Shown here: positions 6,437-20,550 of the stretch, in pieces
Layout of the letters: every line of letters begins with the position of its first letter
How positions within the stretch are numbered: the stretch's first letter is position 1
Origin: an uncultured Pelagibacteraceae bacterium
GTDB taxonomy: Bacteria > Pseudomonadota > Alphaproteobacteria > Pelagibacterales > Pelagibacteraceae
NCBI GenBank assembly: GCA_902595125.1
Contig: CACJOY010000003.1
Location: 1 to 64,000 of the forward strand
DNA: 64,000 nt
Direction of reading: 5' to 3'
Translations under genes and position numbers: made by a program
The notes under the pieces: generated by a model
Told to the model about the DNA's origin: nothing
Databases searched by the model: none
The model's input: the letters and a program-made list of their open reading frames with translations, nothing else

Positions 6437-6757
6437 ATGCTTAAAGAATTTAAAGATGAAATGTTTGAGACAGATATTAAAAATGAAGACGTATCGGTGG
6501 TCCAATTTTCCGCAGCGTGGTGCGGGCCGTGCAAGAATCTTAAACCTATAATGGATAAACTTTCAGAATCAGAAAAATATAAAAATAAAAATTTTTATAT
6601 TGCAGACATAGAAACAGATGGGATCAATACCGCCTCGGCGGCCGGTATAAGAGGAGTTCCAACTGTAATTGTTTACAAGAAAGGAACAGAGACTAATAGA
6701 ATAGTGGGAGGTGTGCCGGAGGGAAAAATGCAAGAATTCCTTGACGAAAATATCTAA
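6437..6757 (+). CDS. trxA: Thioredoxin
   Basis: The 106-residue protein has the normal length of thioredoxin, the cytoplasmic disulfide reductase that feeds ribonucleotide reductase, methionine sulfoxide reductase and other enzymes. The active site is WCGPC at residues 28-32, and the cis-proline segment is GVPTV near residue 75. It has its own likely promoter and SD. Its 3' end overlaps convergent folC by 4 bases, so no terminator separates them. Confidence 0.95.
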   Translation: MLKEFKDEMFETDIKNEDVSVVQFSAAWCGPCKNLKPIMDKLSESEKYKNKNFYIADIETDGINTASAAGIRGVPTVIVYKKGTETNRIVGGVPEGKMQEFLDENI

Positions 6758-12556: not shown

Positions 12557-13768
12557 TTATTTTTTTTCTTCTTTTTTCTTTAAATTATCAGATTTAGCAA
12601 TATCTTCTTTTAGTGATTTGAATGGTAAATTTTTACCAGATCCTTCAGATCCATATTTTTCTAAAGCTTCTTTTTTTTCTATTTCTTCTAAAAGTTTAAT
12701 ACTTAATACAGCTTTGCGCTTATTCATATCAATTTCTTGAATCGCACAATCGATGCGATCACCTGCATTAAACCTAGTTGGTCTCGCATCTGCTGCATTA
12801 ATTGCAATTTGAGATTTTTTAATATTAAAGTCCATCTCACAACTCTCTGGCCTTACAATTAAACCTTTGCTTTCTGTTGATATAATTTTGACAGTTATAG
12901 TTTGATTTATTTTTTTATCTTTAAACCAATCGAAAGGATCTTTTTGTGTTTGTCTTAATCCTACTCTAATTTTTTGATCAGAAACTTTAATTTCTAAAAC
13001 TTTTACTTTAATTTTATCTCCTTTTTTATACTTCGCTAATTCCTCTTCACCATTGTTTAAATAAGTAAGATCATTGCAATGTAAAAATGCATCAATATCC
13101 ATGTCATCTACTTTTAAAAAAAGTGAATATTCATTTTTATTTACTACCTCACCTTCAACAGTGCTTCCTATTTTATATTTTTTTTCAAATGTTTCAAAAG
13201 GATTTTCTAGAGTTAACTTATGAGAAATAGCTACTCGTCTTTTTTCTTTATCAATTTCCGTTATCACGCAACTTATTTCTTGTCCAACCTTAAACATTTT
13301 TTTTGCTGAAACATTTTTTTTTAGCCAACTAAGTTCACTTGAATGTAACAGAGTCGTGAGTCCCGGTTCTAACTCACAGAAAGCTCCAAAGTCCATAATC
13401 TTAACAACTTTAGCTTTATAAACTTTATTTAACTCATAATTTTCTACATTCTCAAAAGGATCTGGTGTTAATTGTTTTATTGAGCAGCCAATCTGTAATT
13501 TATTTTCATCAATGGAGATCACTTTGAGATCCATTTTCTGGCCAATCTCAACAATTTGATCTGGGTGGTCGACTCGACTCCAACTCAATTCTTGAAGGTG
13601 CGTGAGAACATCTATTTCACCATTGACGTTAAAAAATGCCCCAAAGCTTGAGAAGCCCTTACACTCAGCACCCTTAATAATATCTCCAACTTTGTATTTT
13701 TCGATAATTTTTGCTTTGTCTTCTTTTTTATAAGAAGAAATAATTTCTCTTCTTGATACACATGCATT
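12557..13768 (-). CDS. rpsA: Ribosomal protein S1, 3' part (S1 domains 3-6)
   Basis: Read in the frame that follows the hairpin insertion, this segment encodes the rest of S1 after residue 176. It begins N-A-C-V-S-R-R-E-I, the normal linker after S1 domain 2, and continues through four more S1 domains (for example KGFSSFGAFFNVNGEID and MDFGAFCELEPGLT) to a lysine-rich tail. The open frame extends upstream of the first plausible in-frame start (TTG at 13588), and the homology begins right at base 13768, directly after the GGA at 13769-13771. There is no sensible independent start at that point, so it should be read as a continuation of the 14342 start. The joined protein would be about 579 residues, normal for S1. 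Confidence 0.9.
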   Translation of the reverse strand, partial: NACVSRREIISSYKKEDKAKIIEKYKVGDIIKGAECKGFSSFGAFFNVNGEIDVLTHLQELSWSRVDHPDQIVEIGQKMDLKVISIDENKLQIGCSIKQLTPDPFENVENYELNKVYKAKVVKIMDFGAFCELEPGLTTLLHSSELSWLKKNVSAKKMFKVGQEISCVITEIDKEKRRVAISHKLTLENPFETFEKKYKIGSTVEGEVVNKNEYSLFLKVDDMDIDAFLHCNDLTYLNNGEEELAKYKKGDKIKVKVLEIKVSDQKIRVGLRQTQKDPFDWFKDKKINQTITVKIISTESKGLIVRPESCEMDFNIKKSQIAINAADARPTRFNAGDRIDCAIQEIDMNKRKAVLSIKLLEEIEKKEALEKYGSEGSGKNLPFKSLKEDIAKSDNLKKKEEKK

Positions 13769-13817
13769 TCCAAAAGGACTGGTGCCCCCAACCTTAAAGG
13801 TTGGGGGCCCAGCGCCC
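13769..13817 (-). other. Hairpin insertion (candidate translational bypass element) in rpsA
   Basis: On the mRNA strand the S1 frame reads GTG-CGC-GGG (Gly176 codon, 13817-13815) and then enters a GC-rich insertion. In it 12-base arms GCCCCCAACCTT and AAGGTTGGGGGC are perfect complements. CTGG and CCAG form an extra stem at the base, and an in-frame TAA (13796-13794) is at the tip. The insertion ends in TTTT before GGA (13771-13769). Skipping 13814-13769 (46 bases) from GGG to GGA gives K-V-R-G-N-A-C-V-S-R-R, the expected S1 sequence. The reading frames on the two sides differ, so simple readthrough cannot rescue it. It could be a bypassed coding gap, a removed RNA segment or a disabling insertion. 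Confidence 0.8.
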
Positions 13818-14342
13818 GCGCACTTTATCCAATTTTATTAACGCAAATTTTTGAGGCTCATTCATTAAATGATCGATGTTTTTTAAAGGTTTCGAATCAA
13901 TTTGAGATCCAGGAAGAAACATTAATGAACCTGTATCTATATGTTCAACTATACATCCACCTTTGCATTTACTAGTAATACGTCCCATAATAGGTTCATT
14001 TTTTTCATACGCTTCGACAAGTTTGTCCCAACCTTTAATCTTCATAGCTTTGCTTGCAGATACTACAACCTCTCCAGATTTATTTTCTAAAGTCTCCAAT
14101 AAAACTGGAATTTTTGAACCTTCTTTTAAATTTTCCCCAAGGATTGATTTAGCTTCTTGAATATCTATTACAGGCTCACTCTTTAAATTTTCTATGTAAA
14201 GAAAGACATACTTTTCAGTAATCTTATTTACCACTCCTTCAATGATCTTTCCTTCTTCAATATTGATTTTAGAAAGTTGGCTGTTTAATAGTTTCTCGAA
14301 CTCTTTAGAGGCGGGTGTAGTAAGACTTTTAAATATTTCCAT
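13794..14342 (-). CDS. rpsA: Ribosomal protein S1, 5' part (S1 domains 1-2)
   Basis: Starting from ATG at 14342, this frame encodes S1 domains 1 and 2 (EEGKIIEGVVNKITEKYVF and PIMGRITSKCKGG). Through residue 176 (IKLDKVRG) it matches S1. The following six residues (RWAPNL) and the TAA come from the hairpin insertion and are not S1-like. S1 binds mRNA on the 30S subunit and is normally essential. Without bypass or RNA removal, only a 182-residue two-domain product is made. AAGGA lies about 12 bases upstream of the start. The usual upstream neighbour cmk is absent. Confidence 0.9.
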   Translation of the reverse strand: MEIFKSLTTPASKEFEKLLNSQLSKINIEEGKIIEGVVNKITEKYVFLYIENLKSEPVIDIQEAKSILGENLKEGSKIPVLLETLENKSGEVVVSASKAMKIKGWDKLVEAYEKNEPIMGRITSKCKGGCIVEHIDTGSLMFLPGSQIDSKPLKNIDHLMNEPQKFALIKLDKVRGRWAPNL

Positions 14343-14454
14343 TAATAAAGTTTAATCCTTTTTGTTTTTAATTTATTTAAAAACTTGGAACTTTTAGATA
14401 AATTTAGCATTTTAATCAACATCGAATCGTAAATTTTTGAAAATATTAATTAAC

Positions 14455-14460
14455 ATTATA
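14455..14460 (-). promoter_or_regulatory. Candidate -10 box for the rpsA operon
   Basis: The 164-base gap between aroA and rpsA contains a perfect TATAAT on the minus strand, about 113 bases upstream of the rpsA start, with only a weak -35 match. This would leave an approximately 105-base AT-rich leader, long for this compact genome and consistent with leader-based control of S1 synthesis. The rest of the gap shows no ORF or clear structure. Confidence 0.35.
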
Positions 14461-14506
14461 TAATTTTAAGCTATTTTATTGATTAAAAGCGTTACTTTAT
14501 AGATTT

Positions 14507-15832
14507 TCACTTAATCTGAGCTCCTAGTTGCTTGATTTTCTTAAGAAATGAGGGAAAAGATGTATTTATTGAGATTTTGTCGAATATTTGCCAATTACCT
14601 CCAAAAGTTAAAGCAGCTACAACACTCGTCATAAAAACTCTATGATCTTTTAAAAAATTTTTTATTATAATATTTTTTTTTATTTCTAATTCAGGATTTC
14701 CATAAATTTTAATACTATCTTTTGTTACTTTATTTTTAATTCCCATCTTGTTTAAAATTTTTGATCCCCATAAAAGTCTAGGACTTTCTTTTTGATTAAG
14801 TTCGGACAATCTTTTAAAATACGAAACTCCTTTTGCTTTAGCAGCAACCAAGAAGATTAATAAAAACTCGTCTATAGCTTCGCTATTTAATTTAATTGGA
14901 CAGTTTATCGATTTAAATTCTTTTGTACTTTTGACATGTAAATCTGCTATTTTTTCTCCTTTATAAATTTTTGGATTGGAAATTTTAATTTTGATACCCA
15001 TTAATTTTAAAACTTTTAAAATTCCTGTTCTAGTAGGATTTATATTCACATTTTTGATATTTATTTTTGAATTTTTTGATAGAGCTGTCAGAATAATAAA
15101 AAAAGCACTTGAACTTATATCTGATGGAATCTTGTAATTAATCGGATTAATTTTCTTGCCACCGCTGATATTGATAAAGTCAAATTTTTTTTTTTTATTA
15201 ATCTTAATAGGCAAATTGAGATGTTTGAATAATAGCTCAGTATGATTTCGAGATTTTTTTGCCTTAATCTTTGTGACGCCTTCAGTATTCAATGCAGCTA
15301 ACATAATGCTACTTTTACATTGAGCTGAACCTCTATTTTCATAAAAAGATATAGGTCTTGGTTTATTCGTACCATTTATATAAATTGGAAGTTTTCCTGA
15401 GTTGCTTTTAAAAGTTGCACCAAATTCGGATAAAGGTTTAGTGACTCTTTGAAAATCTCTTCTAGACAAACTTTTGTCACCTATAATTTTTATTTTTTTA
15501 TTTGAATGAACTAAAAGACCAATTAAAAGTCTTCCAAGTGTTCCAGAATTACCAGCATTTAAAACTAAATTTTTTTTATATTTAAAATTATTAAGACCAT
15601 TTCCCGTGATTTCACAAAAATTTTTAAATTGTCTTACTTTTATACCTAGCTTCTTAAGGCATCGTAAAGTATCAATCACATCTTCAGATTTTAAAAGATT
15701 AAAAGATTTTGATTTTCCTGATGCTTGGGAAGCTAATAGGGCCCAACGAATTGATAAACTCTTGTCACCTTCTATTATTAATTCTTTATTAAAAGGTCTA
15801 ATAGTTTTAGAAATTCTTACAAAATTTTTCAT
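14507..15832 (-). CDS. aroA: 3-phosphoshikimate 1-carboxyvinyltransferase (EPSP synthase)
   Basis: This 441-residue enzyme joins PEP to shikimate-3-phosphate, the penultimate step to chorismate. Conserved motifs are GDKSLSIRWALLAS near residue 22, LNAGNSGTLGRLL near residue 91 and the DHRVFMTSVVAALTF segment near the C-terminus. It supplies the Trp and Phe pathways also encoded here. The start is separated from lptB by 13 bases. Confidence 0.95.
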   Translation of the reverse strand: MKNFVRISKTIRPFNKELIIEGDKSLSIRWALLASQASGKSKSFNLLKSEDVIDTLRCLKKLGIKVRQFKNFCEITGNGLNNFKYKKNLVLNAGNSGTLGRLLIGLLVHSNKKIKIIGDKSLSRRDFQRVTKPLSEFGATFKSNSGKLPIYINGTNKPRPISFYENRGSAQCKSSIMLAALNTEGVTKIKAKKSRNHTELLFKHLNLPIKINKKKKFDFINISGGKKINPINYKIPSDISSSAFFIILTALSKNSKINIKNVNINPTRTGILKVLKLMGIKIKISNPKIYKGEKIADLHVKSTKEFKSINCPIKLNSEAIDEFLLIFLVAAKAKGVSYFKRLSELNQKESPRLLWGSKILNKMGIKNKVTKDSIKIYGNPELEIKKNIIIKNFLKDHRVFMTSVVAALTFGGNWQIFDKISINTSFPSFLKKIKQLGAQIK

Positions 15833-15845
15833 TACTTTTCTTTAA

Positions 15846-16622
15846 TTAACTAATTTTAAAAGACTCACCAAAATAAACATTTTGGGCATCTATATTTTTG
15901 ATCAAATTAGTAGGAGTTCCATGTGCAACAACTTTTCCATTATGGATTATTGCAGCAGTATCAACACATGCCAGTAAATCTCTAGCTTGGTGATCACATA
16001 AAATAACAGATATATTATTATTACTTTGAAGATTAACTATAATTTCTTGAAGTGTTTTTATTGTCATTACATCTAGAGCAGCAAATGGTTCATCTAGTAA
16101 AAGAATTTTTGGATCAGATATCAATGCAATTGCAATGACTAATTTTTTTTTCTGACCTCCTGATAGAAAATCAGCCTTAATATCTCTTACAGGATCAAGT
16201 TCAAATTTTGAGACTAATGAATCAATTTTTTCTCCCCTATAACTTTGATTTTCTATAGTAATTTCTGCTATGGCTTTTAAATTTTCATAGACCGTCAGGT
16301 CGTGAAAAAAACCTCCATGTTGCGGTACAAAACCTATCTTAAATTTTAGGGTTCTTTGATAAATTGGATAATCATTAACAATTTCATTATTTATTGAAAT
16401 TTTACCAAAATCAGGAGAAAGCAAACCAGTTATCAGATTAAATATAGTTGATTTACCGACTCCATTGGGTCCTAATAATCCTAATATTTGTCCATTATTT
16501 AATCTTAAATTCAAACTATCTAAAATAATTTTTCTCCCAAATTTAAGAGAAATCTTATCAAGTTTTAAAATTGATATATTTTCTTTAAATGATTTGATCC
16601 TAAATTTTTTGATATTTGACAT
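15846..16622 (-). CDS. lptB: LPS export ABC transporter ATPase LptB
   Basis: The 258-residue ATPase powers LPS extraction from the inner membrane with LptFG. The Walker A is LLGPNGVGKST, the signature LSGGQKKKLVIA, and Walker B ILLLDEPFAALD. An N-terminal extension of about 20 residues precedes the ABC fold. It follows lptC by 8 bases. The expected lptA gene between lptC and lptB is not present. Confidence 0.92.
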   Translation of the reverse strand: MSNIKKFRIKSFKENISILKLDKISLKFGRKIILDSLNLRLNNGQILGLLGPNGVGKSTIFNLITGLLSPDFGKISINNEIVNDYPIYQRTLKFKIGFVPQHGGFFHDLTVYENLKAIAEITIENQSYRGEKIDSLVSKFELDPVRDIKADFLSGGQKKKLVIAIALISDPKILLLDEPFAALDVMTIKTLQEIIVNLQSNNNISVILCDHQARDLLACVDTAAIIHNGKVVAHGTPTNLIKNIDAQNVYFGESFKIS

Positions 16623-16630
16623 ATTTTTTT

Positions 16631-17248
16631 TTATTTAGATGAAATTTCAATTTTTTCATTATTATTTTGCATAAAAATTTCCATATTTTTTGTAATTAAG
16701 TCTAACCTAACATTATCAGCTTTGACCGTGCCTTGTAGACCTTCATATACAACATTTTCATAAATTTTAATAATATTTTCATTAAAATTTACGTCTAATT
16801 TTTCTGATAAGATCACATTAGTTAGATAAATCACTTTGACACTATTGAAAAATTCAGTGTTATAATTCGAATTGTTATAATTTGCGTTTTTAGAAGTAAT
16901 AATAAGTGGAATGCCTTCTTTATCATTATATATGGCTGTTACAAATTGCATTTCGACGATTTCAATATTACCTGAACTAGGAACACCTTGTATTTCACTT
17001 CTGTCGTCCTCATACTTTAACTCACTTAATTCAGCAGTAATTGTATATTTAGTGTTGTCATCAAATGCAACGTTGTATTCAAGATTTTTAATTAAATTGT
17101 TATCACTTTCTAAAAGTGAAGAATTTTCCTTTAACTCGATTTTTTTTAAGTCTGAAGTTTTGTTAGTTTTTAAGAAATAAAAGTAAAATAAAAAAGATAA
17201 TAAAATCAATAAGAGAAAAATGAATAATTGTATCAACTTTTTCATCAA
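16631..17248 (-). CDS. lptC: LPS export periplasmic protein LptC-like
   Basis: The 205-residue protein has an N-terminal membrane anchor (residues 5-26, highly hydrophobic) followed by a beta-rich periplasmic region with repeats such as LIITSKNANYN and GLQGTVKADNVRLDL, typical of the LptC/LptA/OstA jellyroll. In the kdsD-lptC-lptB context the call is LptC, though the fold alone does not exclude a merged LptC/LptA role. It abuts kdsD with no spacer. Confidence 0.8.
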   Translation of the reverse strand: MMKKLIQLFIFLLLILLSFLFYFYFLKTNKTSDLKKIELKENSSLLESDNNLIKNLEYNVAFDDNTKYTITAELSELKYEDDRSEIQGVPSSGNIEIVEMQFVTAIYNDKEGIPLIITSKNANYNNSNYNTEFFNSVKVIYLTNVILSEKLDVNFNENIIKIYENVVYEGLQGTVKADNVRLDLITKNMEIFMQNNNEKIEISSK

Positions 17249-18214
17249 TTATTTTAAATTTTTGATAAGATCATGAATATGTATTACTCCAACAGTTTTT
17301 CTTTTATTTCCTTTTTTAAAGACACAAACATTTGTTACTTTTTTTTTGTTCATTTGTTTCAAAACATCTGTAGCTAGTATATTCTCTTCTACGCAAAATG
17401 GGTTTTTTGTTGTAAAAGATTTTATTTTTGAACTATCAATTTTACGTTTTTTTTGAATTAATCTTTTTAGGTCTCCATCTGTAAAGACTCCAGTTGAATT
17501 ACCTTGATTGTTAATAGTTACAATGAAACCGAGACCTTTTGAATTAAGAGTCTTTAATGCTTCTTTCATAATTTGATTTTCATTAACAAACGGCACTTTT
17601 TTTTTAATTAACATTAAATCTCCAGCAGTTTTTAATTTTACCCCTAAATTTCCAGATGGATGAAATTTTTTGAAATCTAGTTTACTAAATTTTTTTTTTT
17701 TCATTAAAGCAATTGAAAGAGCATCTCCAAATGACAATTGTGTTGTAGTGCTTGATGTGGGTACTATACCATCCCCAGACTCTAATACTTCAGGAATAAA
17801 TAATTTAATATTTGAGGACTTATATAAGATAGAATCTTTATTTGATACGATCCCAATTAAAAGAATTTTATTTGCCTTAGCATATTTGATTATATTTTTT
17901 AATTCAGCAGTATTTCCAGAATAGCTTATCAATATAAGTACATCTTTATTTGTAATTCTACCTAAGTCCCCATGGGAACAATCAGATGCAGAGATCGGAA
18001 AAGAAGGAGTACCTACTGAAGATAATGTAGCTGAAATTTTAGCAGCTATTATTCCACTTTTTCCTACACCGCATACAATAACTTTAGATTTACATTTTAA
18101 AATTGCATTTACTGCATCGTCAAAAGACTCATTTATAGAACTCTTGAGTTTTTTCAAAGCTCTAATCTGTAAATCTACTACTTCTTTTCCTATTTCATTT
18201 ATTTTATTTTTCAT
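17249..18214 (-). CDS. kdsD: Arabinose-5-phosphate isomerase
   Basis: The 321-residue protein joins an N-terminal SIS domain (CGVGKSGIIAAKISATLSSV, SGNTAELKNI) to two C-terminal CBS domains. It converts ribulose 5-phosphate to arabinose 5-phosphate, the first step to Kdo. It works in the same pathway as kdsB at 23286. It lies 3 bases after the RNase D-like gene. Confidence 0.92.
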   Translation of the reverse strand: MKNKINEIGKEVVDLQIRALKKLKSSINESFDDAVNAILKCKSKVIVCGVGKSGIIAAKISATLSSVGTPSFPISASDCSHGDLGRITNKDVLILISYSGNTAELKNIIKYAKANKILLIGIVSNKDSILYKSSNIKLFIPEVLESGDGIVPTSSTTTQLSFGDALSIALMKKKKFSKLDFKKFHPSGNLGVKLKTAGDLMLIKKKVPFVNENQIMKEALKTLNSKGLGFIVTINNQGNSTGVFTDGDLKRLIQKKRKIDSSKIKSFTTKNPFCVEENILATDVLKQMNKKKVTNVCVFKKGNKRKTVGVIHIHDLIKNLK

Positions 18215-18217
18215 TTT

Positions 18218-18829
18218 TTAATGTGACCAGATATCATCTCTAAATAGGGCTAAATCAAGATCAACTCTAGTTTTTAAAAATTTTAAACAATCATTATATA
18301 AATTTATTCTGTTTTCTCTTATGAGAATTTTATTGAGTTCATCATGAATTTTGTGAAGGAAAATAACATCATTTGCACAATACTTTAATTGTGCTGGTGT
18401 TAGCTCACCACCAAAATCAGAACTTTGAGATTGTTTACTTATATCAATATTAATAAATTCTTTTATAAGAGTTTTTAAAGAATGATTTTCTGAATATGAT
18501 CTTGCTAACTTTGAGGCAATTTTAGTATCCAAAACATTTTCAATATCTATTTTCAAATAATGTTTTATATGTGCCATGTCAGCTCTTGCATAATGAAAAA
18601 TTTTTTTAACATTTTTATCATTAAGTAATTTTTTCAGTACAGGTGCATCATATGTCTCTCTATTTAATTGAACTATATGAGCATCATTATTTCCACTTGA
18701 AACTTGAATGAGACAAAGTGGGTCTCTTCGAACATTTAAACCAAGAAATTCTCCATCAAAACTACATATATTGCCTAAGTCTAAATCTTCTGGTAGATCA
18801 TTCTTGTGGAGTTTAATATCAATATTCAT
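18218..18829 (-). CDS. rnd: RNase D-like 3'-5' exonuclease
   Basis: The 203-residue protein contains only the DEDDy exonuclease domain. FDGEFLGL near residue 24 supplies the first acidic pair, HYARADMAHI the second Asp, and YCANDVIFLH the Tyr/Asp end. The HRDC domain of classical RNase D is absent, as in the short alphaproteobacterial form. It probably trims structured RNAs. It is divergently arranged from the epimerase gene with a 16-base gap. Confidence 0.85.
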   Translation of the reverse strand: MNIDIKLHKNDLPEDLDLGNICSFDGEFLGLNVRRDPLCLIQVSSGNNDAHIVQLNRETYDAPVLKKLLNDKNVKKIFHYARADMAHIKHYLKIDIENVLDTKIASKLARSYSENHSLKTLIKEFINIDISKQSQSSDFGGELTPAQLKYCANDVIFLHKIHDELNKILIRENRINLYNDCLKFLKTRVDLDLALFRDDIWSH

Positions 18830-18845
18830 TTTTAATTATATATAT

Positions 18846-19823
18846 ATGAAATTTTTAAAAAGTGTCTTAATTTTTGGTGGTTCTGGACAAATAGGTCGTC
18901 ATTTAATAAGAAAGCTTACAAAAAATAACTACAAAGTCACAGTCGTGACAAGAAATATTCATCAAAAAAGTTATATGATTAAAACTCAAGCAAATCCAGG
19001 CTATATAGATATAGTTGAGGCGAATATTTTTGATGAGAGAAAAATAAGAAAGCTTTTTGAAAATTCAGATATTTGTATAAATTTAATAGGAATTTTATAT
19101 GAAAAAAAAGGCAGTTCTTTTGAAAATATTCATGCCTTATTTCCATCTATTTTAGCTAAACTTTGCAAAGAATATAAGATAAAACATTTTATACATTTAT
19201 CCGCTCTAGGTATTAATGAAGCAATAGAATCAGATTATGCAAGAAGTAAATTAAGTGGTGAAGCAAATATCCTTAATAATTTTCCTTTGTCAACAATATT
19301 AAGGCCTTCAGTAGTATATTCTGTTGACGATAATTTTACGACGACTTTTATGACACTTCTAAGTAGACTTCCAATATTTCCAATTTATTACTCAGGAAGA
19401 ACAAAATTTATGCCCATTCATTGTTCTGATTTGACTGACATAATTTATAATGTAATCTCTAAAAATATTTCCTCTAAAATTATTGAATGTGTTGGTCCTA
19501 AAATAATTACTTTTAGGGAGATTATTGAAATTTTACTGAGATTAATAAATAAAAAAAGAATTCTTTTACCGTTACCTTTATCTATTGCAAATTTGTCAGC
19601 AAAATTTTTTCAATTATTTCCAAAACCCTTGCTTACACAAGATCAATTAAGACTACTAAAATATGACAATATTTCATCTGGAAAATATAAAACTAATTCA
19701 GATTTTGGCATTCCAAGTCTAAGAAATTTTGAAAATGAGGTAAAAAAATATTGCTATATGTGGAAAGAAGGTGGCCAATTTTCTACTGAGAAATATAAAT
19801 TAGATGTAGATAATAAAAAATAG
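18846..19823 (+). CDS. NAD(P)-binding epimerase-like protein (complex I NDUFA9-like)
   Basis: From the ATG at 18846 the protein has 325 residues with a Rossmann dinucleotide motif (FGGSGQIGRHLIRKL) near the N-terminus and SDYARSKLSGE as the YxxxK-type region. It resembles atypical short-chain dehydrogenases related to mitochondrial NDUFA9, which are common in alphaproteobacteria. Earlier in-frame codons lie inside the opposite-strand RNase D gene, so the downstream ATG was chosen. The enzymatic role is not established. Confidence 0.8.
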   Translation: MKFLKSVLIFGGSGQIGRHLIRKLTKNNYKVTVVTRNIHQKSYMIKTQANPGYIDIVEANIFDERKIRKLFENSDICINLIGILYEKKGSSFENIHALFPSILAKLCKEYKIKHFIHLSALGINEAIESDYARSKLSGEANILNNFPLSTILRPSVVYSVDDNFTTTFMTLLSRLPIFPIYYSGRTKFMPIHCSDLTDIIYNVISKNISSKIIECVGPKIITFREIIEILLRLINKKRILLPLPLSIANLSAKFFQLFPKPLLTQDQLRLLKYDNISSGKYKTNSDFGIPSLRNFENEVKKYCYMWKEGGQFSTEKYKLDVDNKK

Positions 19824-19828
19824 CTCTA

Positions 19829-20209
19829 TTAAGCAGATTGGATTTTCTTTTCAATAAATTCTGGAACTTCTTCTTTATTTGGAGCATCTTCTTTTTTATT
19901 TTTTGGCTGATAAGCATAAAGGAGATGTAATTTACAATAAGAAAAATCTTTTAATGACGTTCTTCCACAAAAATAAAATGACTTTTCATCTGGATGACCT
20001 ATAGGCCATTTACATGAATCCTCTGTTAACTCCTCCAGTTGTTTAGGGTTTTCTGGTTCAAAATCTTTTTCAATTATTAGAGATTTAAACCTGCTTCTTC
20101 TTCCTCTTTTTAATTTTTTATTTTTATTCTCTAATGAATTTTCAAAGCTTTGATTTGATGTTGCGGCTCTGGTTTTAATTTTTGCTGAAAGATTCAATCT
20201 GTGTGCTTT
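19829..20209 (-). CDS. gcrA: GcrA, 3' part
   Basis: This frame continues GcrA after the hairpin insertion, beginning K-A-H-R-L-N-L-S-A-K-I-K, the expected sequence after the recognition helix. The C-terminal half contains a Cys/His-bearing segment (CKWPIGHPDEKSFYFCG, CKLHLLYAYQP) typical of alphaproteobacterial GcrA. The first in-frame start-like codon is a TTG at 20197, but the homology runs upstream to the GGA at 20212-20210, so this is a continuation rather than a separate gene. The joined GcrA would be about 164 residues, normal for the family. Confidence 0.88.
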   Translation of the reverse strand, partial: KAHRLNLSAKIKTRAATSNQSFENSLENKNKKLKRGRRSRFKSLIIEKDFEPENPKQLEELTEDSCKWPIGHPDEKSFYFCGRTSLKDFSYCKLHLLYAYQPKNKKEDAPNKEEVPEFIEKKIQSA

Positions 20210-20256
20210 TCCAAATGCGCGTGCCCCTCTAAAATTTAGAGGGGCATAATGCGCCC
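20210..20256 (-). other. Hairpin insertion (candidate translational bypass element) in gcrA
   Basis: The GcrA frame reads GTC-ATT-GGG (Gly38 codon, 20256-20254) and then enters an insertion. It contains perfect 11-base complementary arms GCCCCTCTAAA and TTTAGAGGGGC, flanked by GCGC on both sides that can pair as an outer stem. The first in-frame TAA (20238-20236) lies at the hairpin tip. The insertion ends CATTT before GGA (20212-20210). Skipping 20253-20210 (44 bases) from GGG to GGA restores N-A-V-I-G-K-A-H-R-L. Its layout, both junctions and the GGGGCAC after the hairpin match the rpsA insertion, while arm and loop sequences differ. Confidence 0.8.
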
Positions 20257-20367
20257 AATGACGGCATTACGTGAGATGCCGCCTATAATCTCCGCTATTT
20301 GTGAGGCAGTGTTTCCTTTGCCCCATAACTCTTTTAATTTTGCTACTTTTTCATCTGTCCAACTCAT
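20236..20367 (-). CDS. gcrA: GcrA cell-cycle regulator, 5' part
   Basis: The ATG at 20367 begins MSWTDEKVAKLKELWGKG, the classic GcrA N-terminus. The frame continues to SRNAVIG (residues 32-38), inside the DNA-binding helix-turn-helix. The next five residues and the stop come from the hairpin insertion, giving only a 43-residue product unless the gap is skipped. GcrA binds sigma70 and GANTC-methylated promoters in cell-cycle control. The 183-base gap to argD contains several TATAAT-like elements that could serve both genes, and nothing else recognisable. Confidence 0.9.
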   Translation of the reverse strand: MSWTDEKVAKLKELWGKGNTASQIAEIIGGISRNAVIGRIMPL

Positions 20368-20550
20368 AAATTCTATATAATGTGTATATATTAATATAAT
20401 ACACAATATAATGTTATTAATTAAAAAAATAAACAAGGAAAATTTAAGGTTTATCAACAATAATTGGGTAAATTTTATAAACTTTATATTCAATCACCAC
20501 TTGTATCTATCTATTTTAATTTATAGAAGAATTTGAAGATAATTAAAAAA

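Follow-up and report, generated by a model that had tools for sequence, protein, structure and literature searches.

Which process, if any, restores the reading of a gene cut by a short hairpin that shifts its frame? The question is raised by a stretch of 64,000 nucleotides (nt; hereafter the window; G+C content 29%), located on contig C3 of the genome of an uncultured Pelagibacteraceae bacterium, G000 (1,180,510 bases, 97.7% complete). Here rpsA, coding for ribosomal protein S1, and gcrA, coding for a cell-cycle regulator, are each found as two out-of-frame pieces, separated by a short insert. The inserts are proposed to be programmed translational bypass elements: hairpins of 42–53 nt, residing in chromosomal genes of SAR11 bacteria, which the ribosome would jump. 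Judged from the sequences and from the analogy with known systems, a probability of about 0.78 is assigned to this reading. Bypassing by re-pairing of the peptidyl-tRNA is preferred because the codon match, the gap size, a hairpin in the A site, a mostly rare A-site codon and, in most occupied gcrA genes, a 5' stem-loop are shared with the known systems.

Two genes split by hairpins

The rpsA insert sits between V-R-G and N-A-C of S1 and, read linearly, gives G-R-W-A-P-N-L-stop; the gcrA insert, between V-I-G and K-A-H, gives G-R-I-M-P-L-stop. No residue is lost in either protein: positions 5–171 of the NCBIfam profile NF004955 fall in the first rpsA piece and 172–551 in the second, while the Pfam GcrA profile is divided into 1–38 and 39–152. 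Both inserts have the anatomy reported in a preliminary description of this DNA: they start with GGGCGC, contain a GCCCC...GGGGCAC hairpin with an AT-rich tip and an outer CTGG/CCAG or GCGC/GCGC pairing, and end in TTTGGA. The motifs GGGCGC, GGGGCAC and TTTGGA are indeed common to the two inserts, but do not extend to the whole family described below. No other hairpin of the window combines 8 or more perfect pairs, 6 or more of them G-C, with a loop of 3–12 nt. A 64-nt stretch with the rpsA element folds at -35.6 kcal/mol (z-score -4.14), and the gcrA element has a z-score of -4.6; in both cases none of 200 shuffled sequences was as stable. A search of Rfam 15, limited to positions 13600–20400 of the window, gave two matches, neither above the gathering score; the one over the rpsA insert, to the S15 leader, reached 17.4 bits, the gathering score being 39.5. 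Coordinates are reported in Table 1.

Table 1. Coordinates of the interrupted genes and their elements, in the window unless another contig is indicated
Feature	Position	Strand	Remarks
rpsA (30S ribosomal protein S1)	12557..14342	-	two out-of-frame pieces; NCBIfam NF004955
rpsA piece 1	14342-13815	-	codons 1-176
rpsA piece 2	from 13768, stop at 12557	-	403 codons
rpsA take-off codon	13815..13817	-	GGG (Gly)
rpsA element	13769..13814	-	46 nt, ends in landing codon GGA
rpsA element hairpin	13779..13812	-	CTGG + GCCCCCAACC / GGTTGGGGGC + bulged A + CCAG
rpsA landing codon	13769..13771	-	GGA; decoding resumes at AAT (13768-13766)
gcrA (cell-cycle regulator)	19829..20367	-	out-of-frame pieces of 38 then 126 codons; Pfam GcrA
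gcrA upstream stem-loop	20260..20283	-	GGCGGCAT(CTCACGTA)ATGCCGTC; ends 3 nt before take-off
gcrA take-off codon	20254..20256	-	GGG (Gly)
gcrA element	20210..20253	-	44 nt, ends in landing codon GGA
gcrA element hairpin	20222..20246	-	11 bp, 3-nt loop
gcrA outer pairing	20254-20251 and 20220-20217	-	GCGC/GCGC
gcrA landing codon	20210..20212	-	GGA; decoding resumes at AAA (20209-20207)
Third G000 element (L507)	G000:C8:16158-16204	-	outside window; class d; GGG|GGCTAG...GGA, between P-P-G and H-H-A-E
G523 infA, two elements (L491)	G523:C1:59602-59731		AGG/AGA and GGG/GGA; take-off codons 74 nt apart
G262 infA element (L495)	G262:C4:42062-42111		take-off CGG, landing AGA; second infA site empty

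The hairpins might simply kill or truncate their genes, being tolerated or transient, the frame never being restored. Occupied lineages are, accordingly, scattered and split genes rare: gcrA is split in at least 4 of the 335 genus genomes bearing it (G000, G445, G475, G570; partial matches in G143, G464, G545 and G554 are left out, and G443 has two intact copies), rpsA in at least 2 of 282 (G000, G570; 12 low-scoring ones are intact). These are lower bounds, as occupancy was judged by the number of pieces per genome; a third split rpsA, in G262, comes from outside the genus sample. In the nearly complete G000 genome, however, no intact rpsA was found, only the two pieces, and both parts are under purifying selection between two occupied species: the ratio of non-synonymous to synonymous rates (dN/dS) between G000 and G262 is 0.071 and 0.062 on the two sides of the insert, values which are approximate, since dS exceeds 2. 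S1 and initiation factor IF-1, the product of infA, another of the interrupted genes, are moreover essential in studied bacteria. Loss of function is therefore very improbable.

Codon match and structure in a wider family

Further copies, whose presence the preliminary description had made a test of its reading, exist both in G000 and in its relatives: 23 elements were collected, at 7 positions of 5 genes, in 15 genomes. Twelve are in gcrA, three in rpsA, three in a nuclease-like gene (exo), three in infA and two in a histone-deacetylase-family gene; G000 carries three of them, in rpsA, in gcrA and, on contig C8, in the deacetylase gene. "Nuclease-like" is a guess, as the gene has no Pfam match, although viral homologues exist. 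Elements of infA and of the deacetylase gene form a set of their own, class d. Named relatives bearing the same elements are deposited as uncultured Pelagibacteraceae, with isolate names in AG- or AH-, which we take to be single-cell genomes; G000 is accordingly a SAR11 bacterium. The rpsA element is identical at locus L025, while a third genome, G570, features a different sequence at the same place, again with a strong hairpin. An empty allele was seen for each of the five genes.

For the frame INDEPENDENCE, element lengths range from 42 to 53 nt and leave a remainder of 0, 1 or 2, when divided by 3, in 6, 8 and 9 of the 23 elements; gcrA elements alone show all three classes (6, 3 and 3). 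The linear frame meets a stop inside the insert in 22 of 23, the exception being exo in G627, where it follows shortly past the insert. Three length classes together with stops imply that the gene needs a reading process blind to length, or is not read through at all; a single alternative frame, or stop-codon readthrough, was rejected on account of the three classes. The coding sequence resumes exactly in all the host genes: a KAHRLNL block directly follows the insert in 12 of 12 gcrA elements, the Pfam Hist_deacetyl profile continues from 1–111 to 112–298, and infA and the nuclease-like gene lose no residue in comparison with uninterrupted relatives. Such continuity of the profiles, without gaps, also bears on the idea that each half is translated into a polypeptide of its own and that the two work together. 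The second rpsA piece, with its 403 codons, is long enough to make this thinkable; yet gcrA is cut after residue 38, inside the conserved N-terminal block, and infA of G523 is cut twice, nine codons apart, so that cooperation of separate fragments is scarcely credible.

The codon preceding the insert (take-off) and the one ending it (landing) are GGG/GGA in 20 elements, AGG/AGA in one (infA, G523), ATC/ATC in one (gcrA, G445) and CGG/AGA in one (infA, G262). The first two bases are thus shared, in codon register, in 22 of 23 elements; the third differs in 21 of the 22 matching pairs, being identical in ATC/ATC. When the inserts were located by protein anchors, demanding a glycine before the insert but leaving the landing codon free, all 13 glycine-type inserts recovered (that of J03 was missed) had GGG/GGA. 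Empty sites have other preferences: at 30 gcrA sites glycine is encoded by GGT in 20, GGA in 6, GGG in 2 and GGC in 2; at 19 rpsA sites (one duplicate row left out) GGT in 7, GGA in 5, GGC in 4 and GGG in 3. In the long open reading frames of G000, GGG makes up 6.5% of glycine codons.

Both GGG and GGA should be decoded by a tRNA with anticodon UCC, and both AGG and AGA by one with UCU. Among the 30 tRNA loci of G000, ARAGORN identifies one each of tRNA-Gly(UCC), Gly(GCC), Arg(UCU), Arg(UCG) and Arg(ACG); the suggestion that take-off and landing may be read by one tRNA-Gly(UCC) is borne out to this extent. CGC follows take-off in 16 of 23 elements, GGC in 5, and TGC and GCG in one each; no sense codon of G000 is as rare as CGC (27 of 131,001, in 384 long open reading frames). 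CGC as a universal A-site codon was rejected, since class d has GGC.

The codon register is also what separates bypassing from two processes acting on RNA. The main rival is that the inserts are mini-introns removed from the RNA, an endonuclease recognizing the hairpin and cutting at its base, a ligase joining the flanks. Such removal would be exact, independent of length and structure-conserving, and the 5' flanks shared by distant occupied genomes (see below) resemble intron homing. No common splice-site sequence is found, however: the 5' junction is followed by CGC, TGC, GCG or GGC, and the last bases are GGA, AGA or ATC. Known group I and group II ribozymes are far larger than the elements, and the match between landing and take-off in codon register (22 of 23) would be left unexplained; removal from RNA is therefore considered unlikely. 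Skipping of the hairpin by RNA polymerase, between short direct repeats (GG..GG), would produce a transcript devoid of the insert, and 2–3 identical bases do flank the insert in 22 of 23 elements. This process needs no codon register, yet all seven gene positions are in register, an outcome expected about once in 2,000, (1/3)^7, if phases are random and positions independent: polymerase skipping is given a very small probability.

As for structure, the preliminary description had noted that the arms differ while pairing is kept. This holds in an alignment of four elements: all 56 cells of 14 pairs are paired, and 7 of the 14 pairs are changed on both sides, where shuffling gives 1.8 on average; all 7 changes derive from the rpsA row. 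The class d set is fully paired, with 2 pairs changed on both sides, not clearly above chance (61 of 500 shuffles were as high). The G445 gcrA element has a 16-bp, AT-richer stem. The hairpin starts at the A site, directly after take-off; in gcrA elements of the GCGC type, the strong inner stem follows an internal loop.

A second stem-loop is located upstream of the take-off codon in occupied gcrA genes: its stem, GGCGG(C/T)AT/ATGC(C/T)GT(C/T), has 8 of 8 pairs in all 10 genes tested, in three sequence versions (of the 12 occupied genes, J03, with its flank cut off, and G445, which has no such stem, are left out). The full 8-bp stem is present in none of 30 empty gcrA genes, the best having 7 of 8 pairs; the p-value of this difference is overstated, because the empty genes were the highest-scoring homologues and the occupied ones share ancestry. 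The upstream stem-loop was observed in gcrA alone, and was rejected as a rule for all genes.

The following sequence of events is proposed. The ribosome would decode the take-off codon, usually GGG, and the hairpin, which begins within about 2 nt of it, would fill the A site. The peptidyl-tRNA would then let go and the ribosome slide past the hairpin, until that tRNA pairs anew with the landing codon (mostly GGA), regaining the right frame whatever the length of the insert. Hypothetically, a take-off codon ending in G, with its weak wobble pair, would favor release, and a landing codon ending in A, with a Watson-Crick pair, would favor capture. In most occupied gcrA genes the upstream stem-loop, 3 nt before take-off, would probably refold behind the ribosome, as does the 5' stem-loop of T4 gene 60. 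The candidate family of bypass-type elements put forward in the preliminary description is supported by these results, from which we infer bypassing by the ribosome.

Elements were searched by sequence patterns, by covariance models and by protein queries made without any assumption about the insert; the latter yielded the most divergent elements, those of G570 rpsA and G445 gcrA. The pattern GGGGCAC...TTTGGA matched 64 of 397 genomes, and one new element (L025) emerged from 30 places examined. A second pattern, searched in 399 genomes, gave 13 places, 6 of them elements, while a reversed control pattern matched 1 genome. A third gave 38 stretches, 12 being Pelagibacteraceae elements; among the other 26, one AT-rich match was examined. 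One pattern search, one search with covariance model R1 and the gcrA survey apparently used the same 399 drawn genomes. At E <= 0.1, R1 listed terminator-like and weak matches beside real elements; it missed the rpsA element in a filtered search, and found it, at 18.8 bits, when filters were removed. A scan for the bypass anatomy over 837,162 bases, which by design misses the G000 gcrA element and the infA elements, returned 22 rows. Eight are real elements, and 4 are real elements read in a shifted or antisense way; of the remaining 10, 1 lies outside coding sequence and 2 look, by eye, like ordinary coding sequence or overlapping frames. The class d count (n = 5) comes from searches using no genome-wide class d model.

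As a side result, model R1 repeatedly matched a conserved terminator-like hairpin (CCCCCTAA/TTAGGGGG; loci L245-L250 and similar), located between two genes which, by eye, resemble parts of a transporter operon.

Distribution and apparent spread

Occupied and empty sites occur in pairs among close relatives, another expectation of the preliminary description that was confirmed. In a tree of the rpsA protein, the sister of G000 is G666 (support 100/99) and that of G262 is G598 (99/99); G666 and G598 are both empty at gcrA as well as at rpsA. Eight of the 19 inner branches of this tree are open, and G570, on a long branch, is of unsure placement.

The 5' flank of the gcrA element seems to have a history distinct from that of the rest of the gene. 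Between G000 and its sister G666, the proportion of synonymous differences is 0.92 upstream of the insert and 0.37 downstream; between the occupied G262 and M03 it is 0.08 upstream and 0.53 downstream. From +23 to +66 G262 does not differ from its sister G598, but the two are only 64–77% identical, per 22-nt bin, in the 88 nt preceding the insert, where G262 is 91–100% identical to the occupied G000, G570 and M03. The flank is not common to all occupied genes: in J19 and C08 it differs (nearest bin, 0.59 to G000). Going by these sequences, the flank would either have moved with the element or have been kept by selection at the RNA level; a switch of serine codons from AGT/AGC to TCN favors transfer, and the flank thus seems to have moved together with the element. 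The deacetylase alleles of G000 and G570 agree at about 92% of DNA positions (average over 16 bins; range 85–98%), whereas synonymous sites in the rpsA genes of the same two genomes have reached saturation.

The elements seem to pass from one species to another, in gcrA along with the 5' flank. On this basis they are rather likely to be mobile translational mini-introns, invading conserved genes such as those for S1 and IF-1, silenced by bypassing and not by splicing, and moving between SAR11 species, with the 5' flank, in a homing-like fashion. All five host genes lie within about 32 kb (G262:C4, 21.4-53.9 kb; G523:C1, 39-71 kb), which suggests local spread or a recombining region; as searching was uneven, clustering may in part reflect ascertainment.

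At about position 6445 of locus L348 (AG-908-O13), rpsA has an empty site with GGG, and flanks like those of the occupied G262. This is the state that would be left by exact loss, or that would precede insertion; GGG is also present at 2 other of the 19 empty rpsA sites.

A phage-borne family was considered and rejected. Viral contigs were scanned with three patterns. The first gave 114 stretches, among which those with a stem of 8 bp or more, or from a locus with less than 42% G+C, were examined (8 rows, none AT-rich); the second and third gave 4 and 2, judged by eye as non-elements. The nuclease-like gene has viral homologues (75 loci, best 47–48% identity); that it is itself phage-borne was rejected, since it shares a contig with rpsA in G523 and G603.

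A number of points weigh against bypassing, or against repeated spread. Known elements served to build the patterns and models R1-R3, and the expression behind an 18-element table required GGG and GGA in all but G445. In class d the codon after take-off is GGC, instead of the rare CGC, and the second codon is TAG. The CGG/AGA pair of G262 infA is not fully readable by one tRNA, and ATC/ATC in G445 does not fit the idea of a weak take-off pair. The upstream stem is missing from G445 gcrA and, outside gcrA, is weak in rpsA and exo and not distinctive in infA or the deacetylase gene; both this stem and the use of CGC follow in part from shared descent and GC-rich stems. No nascent-peptide signal like that of T4 was identified, in the absence of a systematic search, and upstream peptides differ among genes. 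Constraint on gcrA is weaker than on S1, with a dN/dS of 0.39 downstream of the insert in the occupied pairs G000-G475 and G570-F07. A single gain followed by repeated loss can also be reconciled with the tree, as its starred branches do not require more than one origin, and the element of the nuclease-like gene may be simply inherited, because its three carriers form one clade (100/98). As ascertainment favored GGGCGC, most weight is given to the G445 and infA cases: among these divergent elements, the in-register codon match is kept in two of three (AGG/AGA, ATC/ATC) and broken in CGG/AGA.

Comparison with known systems

Short hairpin-forming repeats inserted into alphaproteobacterial genes are known as Rickettsia palindromic elements; these are larger, in frame and translated, while most SAR11 elements shift the frame and all but one contain a stop. 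Nothing relevant to bypassing in Pelagibacter or SAR11 was found in the open-access literature, and among the papers listed since 2016 that use bypassing terms no bacterial chromosomal bypassing family is apparent from titles and the opening of abstracts. Natural and efficient bypassing of a long gap has been demonstrated in a single phage gene, and is reported from yeast mitochondria as well; a review classes other reports as spurious, as left without follow-up or as still to be studied (PMC5009743). Found in free-living bacteria, and in genes of the translation machinery among others, such a family would, if true, make bypassing a wider bacterial ability, provide about two dozen natural variants for dissecting its rules, and reveal a type of element hidden at the level of translation. 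Gene callers likely split the occupied genes, and scans of SAR11 genomes may misjudge them as broken.

The following likenesses are drawn from the published accounts. In T4 gene 60, matched GGA codons are separated by a 50-nt gap, a hairpin in the A site aids release and a 5' stem-loop folds behind the ribosome (PMC5009743, PMC11194080); sliding is highly processive up to 56 nt, and processivity is lost beyond (PMC11194080). The SAR11 elements are similar in having a glycine take-off codon with GGA landing (20 of 23), a gap close to 50 nt and below that limit (PMC11194080), a hairpin directly at take-off, an upstream stem-loop (only in gcrA, and there in most occupied genes), and flanking frames out of register, with an insert that would otherwise inactivate the gene. 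They differ in being chromosomal, in occurring in several genes and species with signs of horizontal spread, in using GGG and not GGA for take-off, and in their long stems of about 9–16 bp; the T4-type stop codon directly after take-off is not present, its place being taken by CGC, TGC, GCG or GGC.

The yeast mitochondrial byps of Magnusiomyces capitatus, 81 inserts in all, mostly present the A site, at take-off, with a codon that is otherwise unused there (PMC5009743). With them the SAR11 elements share the presence of short inserts of one kind in several genes, with empty sites in relatives, differing upstream peptides, a rare A-site codon in most cases (as against the unused one of byps), and codons not always perfectly matched. 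Bacterial ribosomes and chromosomes, the few copies found per genome (three in G000) and a match of the first two codon bases in 22 of 23 elements set them apart; byps are likened to them by layout, not by sequence. By analogy, the SAR11 elements would work like T4 gene 60 and byps, a likeness drawn from layout.

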